Shown here piece by piece: positions 719 through 15,031 of a stretch of 42,799 nt of DNA. This stretch comes from a virus. The translations under genes and the position numbers were made by a program. The notes under the pieces were generated by a model. That model was given only the letters and a program-made list of their open reading frames with translations, was not told the origin of the DNA and did not search any database. The DNA lies in the IMG/VR virus record IMGVR_UViG_3300037635_000132, positions 1 through 42,799 of that record, one strand, 5' to 3'. Each line of letters begins with the position of its first letter. Position 1 is the first letter of the stretch.

Positions 719-3616
719 ATGGCAAGCATAGAAGACATCAAAGCTTTAGCAGACTTAGTATTTATATCCCAGAACACGGGTGTAGCAACAGCAGATCTGG
801 ACGCCGCATATCAGGCTGTAGGCCTGGAAACCAGCCAAGAAAACTCTTTTGCCTTTGTAGCAGCTAATGACCTACTAGCAGAGAATGGCTACAACGTAGG
901 GGATAACAAGACTTTCTATGGAGGTAATACCCCTGAGGACGTTGGGGCCACATTGCTTTACGATAGATGGCAAGATGCACCTACTCAAGAAGAACTTGTA
1001 GAAGCAGGTCTTGATGAAATAGTTGTAACGAATAGTAGCGCAGGATCAAATGCTTGGCTTACTCAAGAGCTTGCAACTTTAGGCATTGATGCCTCTACAA
1101 CAAGTGCTATAACAGGTAAAACTATAGAGCAAGCGGCTCAAGATAAAGTCAACACTGCTGCACTAGTAGCAACTAACCCTTACTGGGAACCTATTATAGA
1201 AAACGCAGGTTCCTTTGATGCAGCCGAGCTTGATATATTTGAGTGGGGTGACTTACCTAAAAAGAAAAAGCCTATAGTCCCTACACCTACTACACCTACT
1301 GCGCCTGCTGTAACCTCTTCGTCTAACACAGACATACTTAACTTAGGTCAAGGCGAGGTAGCTCCTGTACAAGCTGTACCTCAAGTAGTAACACAACAGG
1401 TAACACCTCCTAGCTACTACAACCAGCCTCAAATATCAGCAAATACATCTATCAGCAACGAAGAGGCAGGTACATTTAGTAAGCCTCTTCAGACTGCAGG
1501 CCTTAGCGCTGTACCTACTACTGCTACATATAAGACACACTACGCTGGTACACCTGGCTTGGTAGACCCTACTCTTGTAGCTCCAGTAGGCGGTGGCGTA
1601 CAGCAAGTTATCTACGGTAATAACTTAGGACAGCAGCAAGTGGTAACTGAAGTAAATGGTAGCCCTACCACCTACGTACCGCCGGGGTTTGTTCGTAAGG
1701 GTACTCCTCAAGAAGTAGCACAAAAAGAAGCTACTGGCATGGCCCAAGGCGGTACTGTACGTGGTTATGCTGAGGGTGGGGATGTAGCACTAATCAAGCT
1801 AGCTCAAATGAATGGTATGCAAGGCGATGACATAGATACTGCACGTGCGTTTATGAATGCTTCAGAGGGACTACGTAACAAAGTCAAAGCTATGGGTGCT
1901 CTTATGGGAGGTGCTAAGGAGCCAGAGCCTGTATACGCTAGTGATGGTACATTTATAGAGGATCAAGCCCAGCGCACTCAGAACTTGATTACCCAGACTA
2001 TGCAACCTACTCAAGCGCCTGTGTCCTACATTCAGCCAGTAGCTGCAGACTTTGTACCCGTAGACGCTGGACAAGCTACTCCTATTGCACCCTACGCAGA
2101 GGCAGCTACAGTTGGTACTGTACAACAAGCCAACCAACAAGTCACCCCTGTAGCACAGACCTACGATTTCACCCCAGCTTACTCACAGGTACAGGCTCAG
2201 ACAGCTGGACTACAGCCTGCACAGGGTACAGTGTCTGCTCCCGCACAGGTAGCTGCACAACAACAAACTACTACAGCATTAACTGGTATGCAAGGCGCAC
2301 AGGGTACAGCTACTGACGTTGTAGCCCCTGCGCCCAGAGAGATGCAGACAGGTGAACTCATTGACCCTGTAGCTGATGCGTCTAGTGCTGCTGCCTTTAC
2401 TGAGCAAGTACAAGCTGCAACTGCAACGCCCAGCGCACAGGCTACTGTAGCAGGTCAACTAGAAGGTCTTATGCAGCAGTTCGAGGGTGGTGAAACACCT
2501 GCATGGGCTGCAGGCTCTATGCGTACAGCTATGGCTACACTCTCTGCTCGTGGCTTAGGTGCGTCTAGCCTTGCTGGTCAGGCTGTTATCCAAGCTACAA
2601 TGGAAGCTGCACTACCTATCGCTCAGATGGACGCACAAGTACAGGCTCAGTTTGAGTCCCAGAACTTGACAAACCGTCAGCAACGTGCTATGCTCTCTGC
2701 ACAACAACGTGCTACTTTCCTTGGCATGGAGTTTGACCAAGGCTTCCAAGCTCGTGTACAGAACTCAGCACGTATCGGTGACATAGCTAACATGAACTTC
2801 TCAGCGGAGCAGAACATAGCTCTTGAGAATGCACGTGCAGCTAACACGATGAACCTTAACAACCTGTCCAACCGTCAAGCTATGGTGATGGCTGAGGCTG
2901 CAGCTTTGTCTAACTTAGATATGGCTAACCTCAACAACCGTCAACAGGCTGCAGTACAGAACGCTCAAAGCTTCCTACAGATGGACATGGCTAACCTGTC
3001 TAACGAACAACAGACAGCTATCTTTAAGACGCAGCAGAACGTACAGGCTTTGTTCACAGATCAGGCTGCAGAGAACGCCGCTGCACAGTTCAACGCTACA
3101 AGCCAGAACCAGACAGATCAGTACTTTGCTAACCTACGTAGTCAGACTTCACAGTTCAACGCCTCACAGCAGAACGCTATGGATCAATTCAATGTTAACT
3201 CTGTGAATGCACTGCGTGAGTTTAACTCTGAGATCCAGCAACAGCGTGACTTGTTTAACGCACAGAATGGTCTACTCATTGCTCAATCAAATGCACAGTG
3301 GCGTCAGACTCTATCTACAGCCAACACTGCAGCGCAGAACGAAAGCAATATGAACTTCGCTAAGACTATTAATGCTTTGACTGCTACTAACCTGGACGCA
3401 TACTGGCAGAGAGAGCGTGACGTTATGAGCTTCGCTTATGCGTCTGGCGAGAGTGCAGCAGATCGCATGGCTACTGTGCTAGTTGAAGAGCTAAAAGCTG
3501 ACGCACAGGCAGCATATGCAGATGCCCAAGGACAAGGCGGCTTGTTTGCTACCCTTCTTAAAGGTGGTTTGAACTATATGAGTGCCTCTGCTGGCAAAGG
3601 TATCATATTAAACTAA
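719..3616 (+). CDS. Large Q/N/A-rich virion protein (internal or tail protein)
   Basis: This 965-aa protein has no enzyme motif that I can see. An N-terminal region of about 180 residues is followed by a KKKK-P/T-rich linker. Next comes a glycine motif (GYAEGGDVALIK, about residue 345), a long Q/A/P/T low-complexity stretch and a C-terminal half built of helical Q/N/A segments. Around residues 645-780 there are degenerate tandem repeats of 20-24 residues centred on N-L-x-N-x-Q-Q-x-A (for example NLNNRQQAAVQNAQSF and NLSNEQQTAIF). This composition fits an extended coiled-coil virion protein injected with DNA or lining the tail. SD AAGGG precedes ATG. It starts a tightly spaced run of virion genes. 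Confidence 0.75.
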   Translation: MASIEDIKALADLVFISQNTGVATADLDAAYQAVGLETSQENSFAFVAANDLLAENGYNVGDNKTFYGGNTPEDVGATLLYDRWQDAPTQEELVEAGLDEIVVTNSSAGSNAWLTQELATLGIDASTTSAITGKTIEQAAQDKVNTAALVATNPYWEPIIENAGSFDAAELDIFEWGDLPKKKKPIVPTPTTPTAPAVTSSSNTDILNLGQGEVAPVQAVPQVVTQQVTPPSYYNQPQISANTSISNEEAGTFSKPLQTAGLSAVPTTATYKTHYAGTPGLVDPTLVAPVGGGVQQVIYGNNLGQQQVVTEVNGSPTTYVPPGFVRKGTPQEVAQKEATGMAQGGTVRGYAEGGDVALIKLAQMNGMQGDDIDTARAFMNASEGLRNKVKAMGALMGGAKEPEPVYASDGTFIEDQAQRTQNLITQTMQPTQAPVSYIQPVAADFVPVDAGQATPIAPYAEAATVGTVQQANQQVTPVAQTYDFTPAYSQVQAQTAGLQPAQGTVSAPAQVAAQQQTTTALTGMQGAQGTATDVVAPAPREMQTGELIDPVADASSAAAFTEQVQAATATPSAQATVAGQLEGLMQQFEGGETPAWAAGSMRTAMATLSARGLGASSLAGQAVIQATMEAALPIAQMDAQVQAQFESQNLTNRQQRAMLSAQQRATFLGMEFDQGFQARVQNSARIGDIANMNFSAEQNIALENARAANTMNLNNLSNRQAMVMAEAAALSNLDMANLNNRQQAAVQNAQSFLQMDMANLSNEQQTAIFKTQQNVQALFTDQAAENAAAQFNATSQNQTDQYFANLRSQTSQFNASQQNAMDQFNVNSVNALREFNSEIQQQRDLFNAQNGLLIAQSNAQWRQTLSTANTAAQNESNMNFAKTINALTATNLDAYWQRERDVMSFAYASGESAADRMATVLVEELKADAQAAYADAQGQGGLFATLLKGGLNYMSASAGKGIILN

Positions 3617-7486: not shown

Positions 7487-10400
7487 ATGGATAGCTCTGC
7501 TCTGTTCAATAAGGCGTTAGCTAATAATGTAGAGGTTAAGCCTGAAGAGGAAGATGATGCTCAGAGTCTTTTTAATAAGGCTATGGCTGCTAATGTAAAT
7601 GGTAGAGTAGACACTCAGACTGACGATATGTTAGAGCCGGGTGCTGACCCTGAAGGTGTGCGTGATCTGACTAGAGATGATGTGTACAGTAGGATTGCAC
7701 CCTACATGAAAGACCACTTTGGCATGACTGAAGATAAGCATGGCAGAGATAAAGTAGTTGACTCTTACGTTAACCACATGCGTAAGTTTAGCTTTGGTCA
7801 GTCAGTAACTACCTTTGAGGAGCTTGCCTACCTGAATAAGATTAAAGGTACAGAAAATAAAGCTGAACGTACTAGACTTATGAATCAAGCAGCCTCAGCC
7901 TACGACACCTTTGACTCTATGAAGGGTGCTTTCTCTGAGGGTACTTCTTCTATGGAGAAGCTTGACGCTGTAGGTGACTACGCCCGTGCCTTAATCGTAG
8001 ACCCTATGTGGTTGGTGGGGCTAGGTGTAGGTAAGCTTGCAGGTATGGGAGCCAGTAAAGCTGCAGGTCAAGTAGCTAAACAAGCAGCACGATCATATGC
8101 TTTAGACATAGTTAAAAAGAAAGGCGCTTCAGAGGGAGCAAGACAGGCTGTACAACAACAAGAACGTATAGCAGCAAACAAGCTGATGACTAGTGCATCC
8201 CTTAAGTCTGGAGCAAAAACAGCAGAGCAACAAACTTTTCTAGCGGCTACTAAACAGGCTGCACGTAGAGAAGCTATTGGCGTAGGTCTTACAGACACTG
8301 TAGCTGGCGTTGGTATGGACGCTATCTATCAAAACATTATGGATGACGTAGACCTACAAGATGGTTACAACATGATGCAAGGTGGCTTTGCTGCTGCTGG
8401 TGGTGCTATAGGTCTTGGCGTAGGCTACTCTTTCGCACGTGGATTTAACTTAGATGAAGCAGACCTATCTTCTCTGGGGGCCATGCGTTTCTATCAGGCA
8501 CAAGAACACCTAGCTAATGCTCGTAAGATAGCAGGTGAGCCATCACAAACCCTAGACGATTTAGATATGGATGGCTTTGAGGCTAGTCTAACTGGTTTCC
8601 GTGATATGATGGAGACCCTAAAAGATAAAGCTGCACGAGGTGTACCACTACGGGAAGTAGAACAAGGCGACTATATCCCTGATGACTTAGTATGGCAAGA
8701 CGCTTTCTTTAAGGGTATATCTACTAGCCTAGCTGACAACGGTATCAAGTACTGGACCAAGCGTGACCCTCAGGACGGATTCCTGAACTGGATGAGTGAC
8801 CTTATGGTAGCCATGCCAAACAATGTAAAGGCTCAGTTATCAGACATCTTTGATGATACGCTTGGTGCAAACGTAGATCTTTACAAAGGCAAGAAGCTAT
8901 TTGAACAAGCTACTATCAAAGACGCAGATGGCAATACCATAACAGGTACAGCCTTAGACTTGGTAGCTAGTGAGATCAGTGACGCCGCTAAGAAGATGGC
9001 TATTGTGCGTAATGCATCTAGCGTGTTCAACAAGATACGTGAGATCAAACCAGACGCAGAAGCAGGGGAATTGATAGAAGAACTTATCAAGGTTGAAACC
9101 CCCGGCGTTACAACTAAAGTACGTGAAGGTATACTAGGTACTGCTAACTACATGCAGCGTAACCTTATTCGTATGCTCGTTACACACCCTGGTACTACTG
9201 CACTTAACTTGGTTGGTTGGTCTACTGCTAGTTCTATGCAGAGCGCTACTGATATTGTGCGTGGTACTCTCTTTGGTGGGGCTGCTATTCTTAACGCTGC
9301 TATGTTTAATAGGGAAGGCGCTGCTAGCTACGCTAAGAAGGCAGGTCTTATGTTCTCCCTGCAGAAACAAAAAGCTCGTAACTTACTAGACCCTAACATG
9401 ACTTACGAAGCCTTCCAAGACATACTGGCATTTAATCCTCAGGCTCAAAAAGATATGCTGCGCTACATGGCAGGTGGTGTTGATATAGAGGAGCTGTCCC
9501 GTAAGCTACAACTAGAAGAGTTCTCAGAGGTAGCGAGTGAGGCTCTGGGTGATGGCGCAGTAAATACCATTAGCCGTAATAAACTAGATAAGATTATGGA
9601 TAAGATCCAGCTTGTCTATGGTGTTAAGCTACAGGACGTTGCTACTAAGTCTCAAGAGTTTATGTATGCCGTAGATAAACAGATGCGTATTAAATATAAC
9701 ATGTCATATAAGGAGTTCTTACAAGACCCTGACATGTGGAAGAAGATGATGGGGGATGACTACGCTGAAGTAATAAGTGCCGCATCTCAAGACGCACTGC
9801 GTAATGTATTCTCTAAGAGTTATGCTGACTCCAGTACAACTCTAGGTAAGATTGCTGGCATGGTTGAGGAGGTAAGCCGACTACCTCTCGTTGGAGCTAT
9901 GATACCATTCGGGCAGTTCTTTAACAACACTATTGCACACATGATGGACCACTCTGGTATAAGCCTTACGCACAGGATCTTTATGGGTGGTACACGGGAC
10001 GTAGGAGATCTAGCTAGCAAGACAGCTGTGGGTATTTCTTTTATAGGTGCAGCCTACAACTACGAAAAAGATTACCTAGAAGAGGGTCTTCAATGGTATC
10101 AATCTAGGTCTTCTGATGGGTCTATTCGTAACCGTCTGTATGACTTCCCATACATATTCTACAAGGCTATTGGGCGTATGGCTGCTCACATTGACAAAGA
10201 CGGTACAGTACCTGAAGAAACCTTTAGAGAGATCGTGACTGTGCTAGGTCCAGGGAACATGACCCGTCAGCTTGATGATACGATCAAGGGTTCTTTCGAC
10301 TTGCTAGTGGAAGCTATGACAACAGAAGATATTGAGGTCAAAGAAGCTTTGATTAAAGTTATCCAAGGCTCTACATCTATGTACGCCTCAGGCTATACTC

Positions 10401-11077
10401 GTTTCCTAGACCCTGTTAACTTGACTGCAGCTATGGTTAAGGGTGATGCATATGTAGCACCAGATCGTAAGCAAGGCTCTGAGTGGGTTAACAAGTCTGT
10501 TAGATACGCAGATGAGTTGCTGGAGTCTATGGAGCTATACACAAAGCCGGGTGAGAAGTACAACGCTATCACTACGGACAGAGCACAAGTACCAATAAGT
10601 AAGGTCTTTGGTATACGATTCAATAATGCGTTATCTAGTACAGAGAAAGCGTTTGGTGAGGCTGGTATACCCAACTGGAAGACTGACATAAGATCATCTA
10701 TTCCTGAGGCTCGTAACGATGTACAGCGTATCATTGCCCCTGTACTTGAGTATGAGTTTGCGGCTCTTATAGAGTCTACTAAGTGGAAATCAGGTACACC
10801 AGCGCAGCGTAAGAGCTACATATACCAGCGCATAAGAGAGAGTAAAGCTCTAGTAAAAGATATCCTTTCTTCGTCCTTTGACCCCAAGGATACACGTACC
10901 CTGATGCTGTTTAAATTAGGGGCTGGGGAGTACGCCAATAAGGCTAGGCTGAAGCAGTACGCTAAGGAGTTTGGTATTGAAAAAGATCTAAATGAGCTAG
11001 AGGATCATCAGCTAAAACTCTTTGTTGGTTTCGTTGAGGTAAGGGAAGACCAACGATTAATAGACGAAAAGAAATAA
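7487..11077 (+). CDS. Very large internal virion/DNA ejection-type protein
   Basis: This 1196-aa protein starts immediately after the preceding TAA. The N-terminus carries a duplicated motif (LFNKALANNV, then LFNKAMAANV). Several hydrophobic or glycine-rich segments occur: DPMWLVGLGVGKLAGMGASK, GGFAAAGGAIGLGVGY and a stretch near residue 565 around THPGTTALNLVGWSTASSM. Helical, amphipathic, giant proteins at the end of the tail gene run typically form the internal core that crosses the host envelope on infection. No transglycosylase or protease motif is seen. The gene ends right at the bidirectional terminator. Confidence 0.75.
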   Translation: MDSSALFNKALANNVEVKPEEEDDAQSLFNKAMAANVNGRVDTQTDDMLEPGADPEGVRDLTRDDVYSRIAPYMKDHFGMTEDKHGRDKVVDSYVNHMRKFSFGQSVTTFEELAYLNKIKGTENKAERTRLMNQAASAYDTFDSMKGAFSEGTSSMEKLDAVGDYARALIVDPMWLVGLGVGKLAGMGASKAAGQVAKQAARSYALDIVKKKGASEGARQAVQQQERIAANKLMTSASLKSGAKTAEQQTFLAATKQAARREAIGVGLTDTVAGVGMDAIYQNIMDDVDLQDGYNMMQGGFAAAGGAIGLGVGYSFARGFNLDEADLSSLGAMRFYQAQEHLANARKIAGEPSQTLDDLDMDGFEASLTGFRDMMETLKDKAARGVPLREVEQGDYIPDDLVWQDAFFKGISTSLADNGIKYWTKRDPQDGFLNWMSDLMVAMPNNVKAQLSDIFDDTLGANVDLYKGKKLFEQATIKDADGNTITGTALDLVASEISDAAKKMAIVRNASSVFNKIREIKPDAEAGELIEELIKVETPGVTTKVREGILGTANYMQRNLIRMLVTHPGTTALNLVGWSTASSMQSATDIVRGTLFGGAAILNAAMFNREGAASYAKKAGLMFSLQKQKARNLLDPNMTYEAFQDILAFNPQAQKDMLRYMAGGVDIEELSRKLQLEEFSEVASEALGDGAVNTISRNKLDKIMDKIQLVYGVKLQDVATKSQEFMYAVDKQMRIKYNMSYKEFLQDPDMWKKMMGDDYAEVISAASQDALRNVFSKSYADSSTTLGKIAGMVEEVSRLPLVGAMIPFGQFFNNTIAHMMDHSGISLTHRIFMGGTRDVGDLASKTAVGISFIGAAYNYEKDYLEEGLQWYQSRSSDGSIRNRLYDFPYIFYKAIGRMAAHIDKDGTVPEETFREIVTVLGPGNMTRQLDDTIKGSFDLLVEAMTTEDIEVKEALIKVIQGSTSMYASGYTRFLDPVNLTAAMVKGDAYVAPDRKQGSEWVNKSVRYADELLESMELYTKPGEKYNAITTDRAQVPISKVFGIRFNNALSSTEKAFGEAGIPNWKTDIRSSIPEARNDVQRIIAPVLEYEFAALIESTKWKSGTPAQRKSYIYQRIRESKALVKDILSSSFDPKDTRTLMLFKLGAGEYANKARLKQYAKEFGIEKDLNELEDHQLKLFVGFVEVREDQRLIDEKK

Positions 11078-11081
11078 AAAG

Positions 11082-11113
11082 AGGGGAGCGATTAAGCTCC
11101 CCTTTCTAGTTTT
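11082..11113. terminator. Bidirectional intrinsic terminator between convergent blocks
   Basis: AGGGGAGC (11082-11089), a GATTAA loop and GCTCCCCT (11096-11103) form an 8-bp GC-rich stem. It is followed by TTCTAGTTTT on the + strand and by CTTTTTATTTC on the - strand. It sits exactly between the stop codons of two convergent genes, so it can stop both the virion and the early transcripts. Confidence 0.9.
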
Positions 11114-11321
11114 ACTGTATGCCGTGCTTGTCCATACAATGCTTAGCCCATAGCACAGCTTCTTGTAGAGCCTTGATAGCGTGGTCTCGTTCATCAGAAG
11201 AGTATAAGTTATACACTATGTAGTCAGATGTAGTGGTGTACATCTTATCTATCTCAGTGATGAACTCTCTCTTCTTCAGTGCGATGAAACGCTTAGCTTC
11301 TTCTTCTATATTAAGTACCAT
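11112..11321 (-). CDS. Small helical protein, possible Acb2-like anti-CBASS protein
   Basis: I start this 69-aa protein at ATG 11321; an upstream in-frame TTG exists at 11333. It is predicted all-helical, with a C-terminal block SSDERDHAIKALQEAVLWAKHCMD. The pattern S-x-E-R...A-(I/L)-x-x-L-x-E-A-(V/M)-x-W-A resembles the C-terminal helix of Acb2, a phage protein that sequesters cyclic nucleotides from CBASS immunity. The resemblance is from memory and short, so this is inference. It is last in the leftward module but has its own promoter (11351-11379), which suggests independent expression. Confidence 0.7.
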   Translation of the reverse strand: MVLNIEEEAKRFIALKKREFITEIDKMYTTTSDYIVYNLYSSDERDHAIKALQEAVLWAKHCMDKHGIQ

Positions 11322-11350: not shown

Positions 11351-11379
11351 AGTTTAACATATGCATGTGATACTGTCAA
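11351..11379 (-). promoter_or_regulatory. Sigma-70-like promoter for the small gene at 11112-11321
   Basis: On the - strand TTGACA (11379-11374) is followed after 17 nt by TAAACT (11356-11351), and the start codon is about 30 nt further on. The -35 context is GCCTTGACA. It lies just after the phoH stop codon. Confidence 0.6.
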
Positions 11380-11386
11380 GGCTTAA

Positions 11387-12091
11387 CTACAAGCCTTCCT
11401 TCATAAACACCTTGACCCACTCAGCGCAGATCCCACTACGTACAATGTCATCAATGCCAAACTCTACTACGGGAACATCTAGCATGTGCTTCTTAGCTAG
11501 GTGTATGATCTTAGCTAGACCAGACGTACCCTTCAAGTCAGACTGTTGTATGTCACCATTGAGGACGATAGTGCTACCCTCACCTACACGTGTCAACAAC
11601 ATCTTGATCTCTGGTATGTCTATGTTCTGTGCTTCGTCTACAATAATGAACGCATTGTCAAAGCTACGTCCACGCATCAACGCTAGTGTAGCTACTTCAA
11701 TGTTACCGTTCTTTACACCTGTATCAACAGCGCCCCTACCTAAGTGTTTAATCAGTACGTCTAGCACAGGCAGCGCCCAAGGTTGTGCTTTCTCTTCTAG
11801 TGTACCGGGTAGGAACCCAATGTCTTTACCTACAGCTACGTGAGGACGTGTGATAACAATCTTGTCAATCTCTTTGCGTGTGTACAAGTCTGCTGCACAT
11901 GTAGCTGTAACGTAAGTCTTACCTGTACCAGCAGGGCCAAGTATTAGCACCTGCTTGCTAGAGGCAATGGCGTTGATTAGCTTACATTGATTGTCAGTCT
12001 TAGGTACTATGCCAGAGGTAGGCTTGCTAGCTGCACCCTTGTAGGTTGTCTTACGGCGGGTACGTCTTGGTTTAACTAATTCTTCTTGCAC
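11387..12091 (-). CDS. phoH: PhoH-like P-loop ATPase
   Basis: This 234-aa protein has a Walker A motif (LILGPAGTGKTYVTA, about residues 49-63) and a Walker B motif (NAFIIVDEAQNI, about residues 128-139). A conserved SGLAKIIHL region near the C-terminus is followed by FGIDDIVRSGICAEWVKVF, which is typical of PhoH. PhoH is common in marine phages. Its molecular role is unsettled; some relatives are RNA helicases or are induced by phosphate starvation. The start is GTG at 12091 with a GGAGT SD seven bases upstream. It overlaps the endonuclease VII gene by 20 nt. Confidence 0.9.
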   Translation of the reverse strand: MQEELVKPRRTRRKTTYKGAASKPTSGIVPKTDNQCKLINAIASSKQVLILGPAGTGKTYVTATCAADLYTRKEIDKIVITRPHVAVGKDIGFLPGTLEEKAQPWALPVLDVLIKHLGRGAVDTGVKNGNIEVATLALMRGRSFDNAFIIVDEAQNIDIPEIKMLLTRVGEGSTIVLNGDIQQSDLKGTSGLAKIIHLAKKHMLDVPVVEFGIDDIVRSGICAEWVKVFMKEGL

Positions 12092-12755: not shown

Positions 12756-14657
12756 TTACACTAGGTCTACGATCTCACAGCTGTCACCAGAGCAAGCCAT
12801 AGTCTGCATAGACACTGTATTGTCCTCACTCTCGTACTCATTGAGAAGCTCCCAATCAATCTTGGCTGGCATCTTGGCAAGCATCTCTTCGTACTCTTCC
12901 TTGGTGCAGTCCTGATAGGGTGCTTGCTGGTAGGTATGATCTGAGTGTGGCAGAAATGACACACCTGACATTTCATCGAAGTGCTCATAGACAAACGCAC
13001 CTACAGCCATCCACTCAGCATCCCGTACTGAGATAGTCACGCTAGGCTTATGCTCACACCAAGAACGCTGGTAAGTCAGCCATAACTCTAGCTGCTCTAC
13101 TGCAGTCATATCGTTACGTGTTACAGCCTGCTCTGGTGACTTGACCGGGAAGCTGAACACCACAGTAGAGTCAGGCTTCATAACGCAAGGCTCATTAGGG
13201 ATACCTTGGTCAATCATAAACTGAGTCAAAGGGTCTTTGTTATCACCACGCACAGTCCGAATGTAATGGGGGCTGTGACGAGCGTGAATACCAGAGGCAG
13301 AGTCAACCAACTGTGATACTGTTCCCGAAGGTTTAACGCAGCTGATAGAAGCAGAGACAGGGATGCCAAGGCGCTCAGCCCACTCAGCGTTAGTAGCGAC
13401 AGCGATAGAACGTAAATGCTCAAGGGTCTTATCCAATCCTTTGTTAGAGTTTGTCATTAGTGGGTTGTCCATAATACCTGTCATAGATACGCCAAGCAAC
13501 CGTTCCTCTGCAGTATTCTTCTGCCATACCTTACGTAGGTAGGGGAACTTAATCATAGTAGACTGTACAGTACCCAAGATAGTAGCCAGCTTTACCTTAC
13601 GCTCAAGGTCTTTCAATGTGTCGTTAGCCCGTACCACACACTCCGTTAAATTACAGAACTGATATGGACGTAAAATGATTTCAGAACAAGGGTTTGTACC
13701 AAACTCATAGTTAGGATCACGCCGCCCAAACTTAGCTGCTTGCTTCTTGGACGCCTCACGATTGAAGATACCACGCTCACCTGACTTAGACTCAACGAGA
13801 GAGAGCCACTCACGCATGAATGTTTCCATGTCTGGCTTCTCAGTGTACGACACACTGTTGTTAGCCAAGGCACGGTGCCCTGCTGTCTCCCACCACTGTC
13901 CTGACTTAGCGTGACGCATACGATCATCACTCAGGTTAGACAGAGAGATCATCGCTGAGCGCCTCACGCCACCTACGACAACGATCTGACCAATGAAGCA
14001 CATCAAGTCGTGACACTCCATAGAGCTAAGCTTACGCCCTTGTGCTGCCTTGAAGGTGGACACAGCAAAGTTAAACAACTCTACGAGAGGCGCTGGGCCT
14101 GACGCTCTACCGCCAAACGTCTTGAGCCTTGCACCAGCAGGGCGTACACGAGAGACATCCCACTTAGGGATCTCACCAGCCCAGAGGAGCGCAAGAACTT
14201 GACGGAACCCCTTAGCCCAGCCTTCCTTACTGTCCTTAACGACAACGACAGACTCACTCTCGAACAACTCAGGCACCTCTGGGAGCTTGCTGACGAACTG
14301 GCGCTCAACGGAGAACCCGACACCAGTACCGCAGAGGAGGATGTACATGGCCTCATCGAAGGACTTAGGGTCATCTACGGGTAGGTAGCTACAATTGTAA
14401 CCTGCAGTGTTGTCACGATCTAGCGCTGGGCCAGCTGTCATCATAGCTCTCATAGATGGCATGATGTCTTGGTTGAGAATAGCCTGCTCAATATCTTTGA
14501 TTGTGCTATCTTCTACAGTAACTGCAGGGCGTACTACATTGTCTACGTAACGTGCTACTGTTTCACCATACGATTCACGCCCCTTGTTATCAAAGTACTT
14601 GGCATAACGAGACTTGTGAATGAATGCTTGATAGTCTGTTGATAGTTGGTTGCTCAT
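12756..14657 (-). CDS. nrdJ: Class II (B12-dependent) ribonucleoside-triphosphate reductase
   Basis: This 633-aa enzyme is of the monomeric adenosylcobalamin type that converts NTPs to dNTPs. Visible signatures are the N-terminal substrate-site cysteine (GYNCSYLPVDDP, about residue 88), the thiyl-radical loop GTNPCSEIILRPYQFCN (about residues 320-336), SCVKPSGTVSQLVDSASGIH and a C-terminal redox pair ACSGDSCEI. No separate radical-generating subunit is encoded nearby, consistent with class II. It works with the glutaredoxin next door and with MazG and ThyX in building the phage dNTP pool. Its use of cobalamin implies that the host makes or imports B12. ATG overlaps the mazG stop as TAATG. Confidence 0.92.
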   Translation of the reverse strand: MSNQLSTDYQAFIHKSRYAKYFDNKGRESYGETVARYVDNVVRPAVTVEDSTIKDIEQAILNQDIMPSMRAMMTAGPALDRDNTAGYNCSYLPVDDPKSFDEAMYILLCGTGVGFSVERQFVSKLPEVPELFESESVVVVKDSKEGWAKGFRQVLALLWAGEIPKWDVSRVRPAGARLKTFGGRASGPAPLVELFNFAVSTFKAAQGRKLSSMECHDLMCFIGQIVVVGGVRRSAMISLSNLSDDRMRHAKSGQWWETAGHRALANNSVSYTEKPDMETFMREWLSLVESKSGERGIFNREASKKQAAKFGRRDPNYEFGTNPCSEIILRPYQFCNLTECVVRANDTLKDLERKVKLATILGTVQSTMIKFPYLRKVWQKNTAEERLLGVSMTGIMDNPLMTNSNKGLDKTLEHLRSIAVATNAEWAERLGIPVSASISCVKPSGTVSQLVDSASGIHARHSPHYIRTVRGDNKDPLTQFMIDQGIPNEPCVMKPDSTVVFSFPVKSPEQAVTRNDMTAVEQLELWLTYQRSWCEHKPSVTISVRDAEWMAVGAFVYEHFDEMSGVSFLPHSDHTYQQAPYQDCTKEEYEEMLAKMPAKIDWELLNEYESEDNTVSMQTMACSGDSCEIVDLV

Positions 14658-15031
14658 TATCGTGTATCTCCTGACCCTTTAAGGGTTCCTCTAGCTTTGC
14701 GGTCTTGTAGTTTCTCTAGGTTTGCTTTAGCTACATCACCCAGGTCTATGTTGAGGTCTCGACACAGGGCTGCTATGTACCACAAGCAATCCCCTATCTC
14801 CCCTTTAAGTGCAGCCTTGTCCAGCTTACCATCACGTATGATCTTCTTGACTTTGTTGGCTACTTCCCCTGCCTCACCAGCTAAGCCCAGCGCAGGGTAA
14901 GTGATAGCATGTTGCGTAGGGTAGATAGCAGTACTAGAAGCTGCCTTTTGATAGGACGATAGTGTCATATCTTTATACGTAGTAGTATCCTTATAGTACC
15001 CCCAAGCTTCTAAGTCTGTCTCGTTAATCAT
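14657..15031 (-). CDS. mazG: MazG-like nucleotide pyrophosphohydrolase
   Basis: This 124-aa protein has the all-alpha NTP pyrophosphatase metal motifs GLAGEAGEVANKVKKI (about residues 48-63) and KGEIGDCLWYIAALC (about residues 79-93). The length fits single-domain phage MazG. The enzyme hydrolyses (d)NTPs or alarmone-type nucleotides, and in marine phages it is thought to adjust host nucleotide signalling. It is coupled to the upstream 56-aa gene by an ATGA overlap, with SD AAGGAGAGG inside that gene. Confidence 0.9.
   Translation of the reverse strand: MINETDLEAWGYYKDTTTYKDMTLSSYQKAASSTAIYPTQHAITYPALGLAGEAGEVANKVKKIIRDGKLDKAALKGEIGDCLWYIAALCRDLNIDLGDVAKANLEKLQDRKARGTLKGSGDTR

Follow-up and report, generated by a model that had tools for sequence, protein, structure and literature searches.

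Acb2, known as Vs.4 in phage T4 and as p26 in Pseudomonas phages (PF24729; PDB 7uq2, 8h2j), and Tad1 (Thoeris anti-defence 1; PDB 8kbb, 7uav) are the described systems closest to the protein analysed here. The cGAMP held by Vs.4 stacks against Y8 and F82 and forms bonds with Y8, H11, K23 and R79; L29, A66, A73 and A77 are required for the hexamer, and mutation at A66, A73 or A77 abolishes it (PMC10097602). Among 61 canonical members of PF24729, helix 2 carries an invariant arginine and, seven residues further on, an invariant threonine, the invariance of the latter being partly built into the search pattern. These two residues, R67 and T74 of p26 by our own count, are presumably ligand contacts, an assignment on which we build no proof. 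T4 Vs.4 itself has an aspartate at the position of the arginine, so the arginine is not essential to every Acb2. Phages of the HMO-2011 type have been described as dominant among ocean viruses and as widespread there (PMC9038755), and our literature search found no paper naming them together with a counter-defence protein.

Here, we have analysed a stretch of 42,799 nucleotides (the window; IMG/VR record IMGVR_UViG_3300037635_000132) from an uncultured, marine HMO-2011-type phage of roseobacters, whose nearest records are CRP-13, CRP-2, CRP-4, CRP-207 and CRP-603. Its leftward replication module runs in the order RNR, glutaredoxin, endonuclease VII and PhoH, and ends with a gene for a protein of 69 residues (ATG start, TAA stop; Table 1). 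An earlier note on this DNA had described an open reading frame with the stretch SSDERDHAIKALQEAVLWAKH at the module end and had read it as an all-helical, possibly Acb2-like anti-CBASS protein with its own promoter. The reading frame contains the quoted stretch and stands where the note had put it, with a convergent gene beyond the terminator-like hairpin.

Table 1. Features of the hairpin gene and its surroundings, in window positions.
Feature	Position	Strand	Basis or remarks
69-aa gene	11112..11321	-	leader, Acb2/Tad1-type helical hairpin and HGIQ tail; ORF, 47 distinct homologs, PF24729, hhalign, AlphaFold
Leader, residues 1-16, MVLNIEEEAKRFIALK	11274..11321	-	PSSM ranks and regex; common to unrelated same-slot proteins of other phages
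PF24729-aligning part, residues 18-64	11130..11270	-	hhalign alignments start at residues 18-23 and stop at residues 64-66
Conserved C-terminal tail HGIQ	11115..11126	-	family form (H/N/Y)G(I/V)(K/Q); G67 47/47, I/V68 46/47
Promoter, extended -10 with TG	11351..11379	-	TTGACA 11374-11379, 17-nt spacer, TAAACT 11351-11356
Terminator-like hairpin between two convergent genes	11080..11105	both	terminator-like on either strand
Structural-module gene (1196 aa) that converges on the hairpin gene	7487..11077	+	ORF; tblastn to convergent neighbours of CRP-9, CRP-603 and CRP-207
PhoH-like ATPase, directly upstream of the hairpin gene	11387..12091	-	PF02562, E 3.6e-64
MazG-like gene, internal slot before the RNR gene, without leader	14657..15031	-	translation

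We found 47 distinct homologous sequences of the 69-aa protein, all about 67-69 residues long and ~26-100% identical, in IMG/VR contigs and in the Roseobacter phages CRP-207, CRP-603 and CRP-2, with the gene order unchanged. The downstream gene is convergent in all 61 homolog contigs with a readable flank, and close homolog pairs show purifying selection (dN 0.04-0.08, dS 0.19-0.31; NG86). On the strength of the constant length, the kept gene order and the purifying selection, we conclude that the reading frame is a real gene. Relatives were not found in the bacterial and archaeal genomes searched, and NCBIfam and PADLOC gave zero matches. As HMO-2011, CRP-1, CRP-3, CRP-9, CRP-13 and CRP-345 have neither a PF24729 match nor a match to the family profile, not every phage of the HMO-2011 group has the protein.

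The best Pfam match of the window protein is PF24729 (Acb2_Tad1_hairpin), with an E-value of 0.016 and 15.8 bits for the single sequence; the homolog of CRP-207 gave 0.0058, and the Pfam gathering cut-off of 27 bits was reached by no homolog with a reported score. Across the family, PF24729 was matched by 17 of 22 members and every other Pfam family by at most two, although sub-threshold matches to PF24729 are by themselves non-decisive, since 8 of 14 control genomes give some. T4 Vs.4 and one clear PF24729 member match the profile of phrog_1454, and so did the window protein at 0.001 and the CRP-603 protein at 4e-6. A profile-profile search, suggested in the earlier note as a check, bore out the relationship: hhalign against canonical PF24729 members gave a Prob of 94-95% and an E-value of 3e-8, or 1e-7 when 47 sequences were compared with 61. 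The real score was 39.0, compared with a maximum of 20.6 for 300 column shuffles and 10.4 for the reversed control. When the canonical hairpin profile was run over 978 phage-locus reading frames, the phiCB2047-B protein came first, T4 Vs.4, an established sponge for cGAMP, second and the window protein third, followed by those of CRP-603, CRP-207 and CRP-2 at ranks 4 to 6. The family profile in turn matched the RyR+hairpin protein of phiCB2047-B, which is itself above the Pfam cut-off, at 8.8e-7; among PDB sequences its best match was Tad1 (8kbb), a weak one (E 0.24-0.27). Based on the profile-profile comparison and on the shuffled, reversed and background-ORF controls, we regard it as secure, at the level of the superfamily, that the 69-aa protein and the Acb2/Tad1 hairpin domain are remotely homologous.

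The Pfam families Mit_proteolip, SFV1_VP4, RRM_fung and DUF3196 were each matched by one family member, and these matches were rejected; phmmer with the window protein against the PDB gave chance matches only.

The AlphaFold model of the protein is an antiparallel two-helix hairpin (helices 5-38 and 43-66, mean pLDDT 91), in agreement with the all-helical fold claimed before. Its VIA-align superposition on Vs.4 with cGAMP (7uq2) gave a Z of 7.1 and an rmsd of 3.8 over 66 aligned residues, tied with unrelated hairpins. In Foldseek, Vs.4 ranked 7 (E 2.3) and Tad1 ranked 15, with non-significant E-values above 0.5. These comparisons are compatible with the fold of Vs.4 and non-discriminating, two-helix hairpins matching many unrelated chains.

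The correspondence of residues between Vs.4 and the window protein was anchored on a tryptophan, W58, which is invariant across the family. The hexamer residues A66, A73 and A77 of Vs.4 correspond to A48, A55 and A59 of the window protein; position 48 is alanine in 45 of the 47 homologs, position 55 is alanine in 17 and valine in 28, and position 59 is small in all 47. Y8 and H11 of Vs.4 have no counterpart in the family, where no tyrosine or histidine is aligned with them and the leader lies instead within the one continuous helix 5-38. F82 is replaced by D64 (mostly D, K or R in the family) and R79 by H61 (R in 32/47 homologs), and K23 falls on D25 in the profile register, where the family has mostly Q or D, and on K/R16 in the MAFFT register (K16 in the window). 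At the positions of the canonical arginine and threonine of helix 2, 0/47 homologs have R and 0/47 have T, respectively; the family has D/E/T/S/G at the first and K/E/R at the second. What is conserved in its helix 2 instead is K50 (44/47) and E44 (46/47). No ligand residue of Vs.4 is clearly retained in the family; the scaffold was thus kept, and the ligand site was rebuilt or lost. It is mainly for this reason that we do not file the 69-aa protein as Acb2; judged by its residues, it is not a standard member. The anti-CBASS proposal had been made dependent on the cyclic-nucleotide pocket residues, and their state (Y8, H11 and F82 without counterpart, K23 unretained in the profile alignment, R and T of helix 2 replaced) counts against it. 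The proposed family thus stood, through the best Pfam match, hhalign and the controls, and the proposed function was weakened by the missing ligand residues.

The promoter of the gene, TTGACA-N17-TAAACT with an extended -10, is situated 58 nt ahead of the start codon, and the strict pattern has two matches in the window compared with 0.2 expected. It was found at -57 to -74 in all 24 homologs of the window's clade and in none of the 21 homologs checked of the clade of CRP-603 and CRP-207; in these two phages the hairpin gene overlaps the preceding gene. Since it is present throughout the one clade despite a varied spacer sequence and absent from the other, we hold that this promoter is real and specific to the clade, which bears out and refines what the earlier note had said of it. 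The second strict match, at 2666-2694 on the plus strand, lies inside a 965-aa reading frame (719-3616), and there were no further ones.

The part aligned to PF24729 begins at about residue 18, and residues 1-16 behave as a leader of their own. Its motif is (L/I)ExEAxxF, or (L/I)ExEAxxF(hydrophobic)xx(K/R) in the longer form. In a comparison of the family profile with individual reading frames, the module-end genes of CRP-345, CRP-13, CRP-9, CRP-1 and HMO-2011 surfaced through the leader stretch only. With a PSSM made from the hairpin family only, the slot genes of CRP-345, CRP-13, CRP-1, CRP-9 and HMO-2011 ranked 4, 5, 6, 8 and 11 among the 2407 reading frames of nine genomes. A regular expression for the leader, composed after the sequences had been viewed, matched the slot gene in eight of the nine genomes and had one other match in all frames. 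Three of the five leader-bearing slot genes encode MazG and two belong to the gp34 family (CRP-13 gp34), and as the MazG genes are mutually homologous and the gp34 genes likewise, the sharing amounts to two independent cases. Beyond the family, the E-values of a leader-only HMM (0.95 and 10) were not significant, and the case for the leader is based on rank and position rather than on these values. Apart from the window (11274-11321), the leader lies near the N-terminus of the unrelated terminal-slot proteins at L040:2994-3356, L041:4613-4993, L043:6387-6770, L039:3175-3426 and L044:3327-3575.

Among MazG genes, the leader is present in 9/9 cases in the terminal slot and, in related phages, in 0/63 in the internal slot before RNR; this split may be phylogenetic, reflecting two orthologous groups, and the sharing across families is the stronger part. 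The gp34 family is found in the same terminal slot in all 75 readable cases, the invariance of its leader being partly built in, since the search patterns fell inside the leader. It could be argued that the leader is a remnant of 5' sequence left by recombination; however, a different basic N-terminus precedes it in CRP-13 and CRP-9, and its codons differ between the protein families, which makes such an origin less likely. We tentatively suggest, while thinking it somewhat more doubtful than probable, that a terminal slot is reserved in HMO-2011-type phages for fold-unrelated proteins (a MazG pyrophosphohydrolase, an Acb2/Tad1-type hairpin and the gp34 family) that have in common a ~16-residue leader. 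As a tag for docking or targeting, this leader would direct exchangeable payloads to a single partner of phage or host origin. Two of these three payloads would be tied to nucleotides or nucleotide signals.

A second shared start, MI(S/T/N)x(E/D)D(I/L)(E/D)A(F/W/M), is seen in genes just before RNR, which encode either MazG or another pyrophosphohydrolase-like protein (L010:1868-2227, L011:1635-2120, 13286-13759 of the CRP-13 record and 14657-15031 of the window). It is perhaps another slot-linked N-terminus, or else a sign of distant homology between the two proteins.

How could the hairpin protein function? It would be a small, presumably oligomeric helical hairpin descended from the Acb2/Tad1 hairpin superfamily. 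As the gene has its own host-type sigma70 promoter in the window's clade, the protein is probably produced early and independently of the preceding genes. The residues for packing a hexamer are largely kept, and those of the lid and the ligand site have given way to K50 and E44 in helix 2, to a straight leader helix where the lid loop would be and to the conserved HGI(K/Q) tail; the protein may still bind a ligand and could act against a host defence. In our opinion, its most likely role, for which we see not quite an even chance, is that of an oligomeric sponge for a small-molecule ligand (a nucleotide signal) other than that of T4 Acb2. Sister phages have MazG in the same slot as the hairpin gene. 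As Atd1, a MazG-like phage protein, is a reported inhibitor of TIR-STING defence (PMC10419184), this arrangement fits, by analogy, a role of the hairpin in nucleotide signalling, although MazG may alternatively serve plain nucleotide metabolism (PMC9038755).

The main rival to such a sponge is that the hairpin serves as an oligomerization scaffold only, and that the leader and the HGI(K/Q) tail bind a protein or nucleic-acid partner, the protein being no longer a nucleotide sponge. We consider this a real possibility, if a lesser one, as the canonical ligand residues are lost while the packing residues, the leader and the tail are conserved; moreover, unrelated proteins encoded in this slot bear the leader as well, which points to a partner that they have in common, and the hairpin occurs elsewhere as a fused module, in the RyR+hairpin protein of phiCB2047-B. 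A changed ligand pocket would, however, agree equally well with the conserved K50 and E44 of helix 2, and the partner is so far hypothetical.

It is improbable that the protein is an ordinary functional Acb2, that is, that it forms a hexamer and blocks CBASS by sequestering 3'3'-cGAMP and cyclic dinucleotides related to it. The secure homology, the match of A48, A55 and A59 to the hexamer interface of Vs.4 and the gene's own promoter would agree with it, but the protein lacks both the N-terminal lid and any counterpart of the cGAMP-site residues Y8, H11 and F82. Even less do we believe in a chance resemblance among short amphipathic helical hairpins, which was already disfavoured: weak single-sequence scores, the sub-threshold matches in control genomes and the non-discriminating fold search would all be expected from it, but shuffled and reversed profiles scored far under the real one, T4 Vs.4 and the genes of the window's family were at the head of the 978 reading frames, and the link to phiCB2047-B reached significance as given above.

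If the family is indeed a diverged hairpin with a rebuilt ligand site, it would point either to a defence nucleotide signal of roseobacters unlike the known ones or to a sponge scaffold that was repurposed. The shared leader, for its part, provides a testable rule: as the mark of a single slot in the genome, it would allow the genes in that slot to be identified across many uncultured phages, and a partner common to their proteins is predicted.

Compared with the known systems, the window protein is, like Acb2 of T4 and p26 of Pseudomonas phages, a helical hairpin from a small phage gene, homologous at the profile level, with the helix-2 core A..LxEAxxW common to both and with the interface alanines retained. 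It is shorter (69 residues vs 88-94), has a shorter hairpin and different polar residues in helix 2, and lacks both the short N-terminal helix that carries Y8 and H11 in Vs.4 and F82. With Tad1 it has in common the helix-2 stretch CRENAMAITKLQECLMW, which is what the family profile matches best in the PDB, whereas the N-terminal beta-sheet domain and the helix-2 arginine and threonine of Tad1 are all missing from it.

The closest profile relatives are the small hairpin proteins of phrog_1454 and actinophages (NRFxFHxAT...GREKSLAxTKLEEAMFWANAAIAR), which are similar in length and in their hairpin. Proteins of this type are found in many actinophages and uncultured phages (L054-L060, L061-L140), where the annotated ones are hypothetical; eight were scanned and all match PF24729, one shown in full being well above the cut-off. 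They keep the N-terminal NRFxFH, the arginine (61/61) and the threonine, in place of which the window family has the leader and K50. The best link to a single protein is to SUFG_00048 of Sulfitobacter phage phiCB2047-B, likewise a roseobacter phage. The RyR domain is there fused to the Acb2/Tad1 hairpin (L014:3575-4141), possibly as a two-domain nucleotide binder. Unlike the window protein, SUFG_00048 has 188 residues and an RyR domain, the hairpin forms its C-terminal part, and both the arginine and the threonine of helix 2 are kept.
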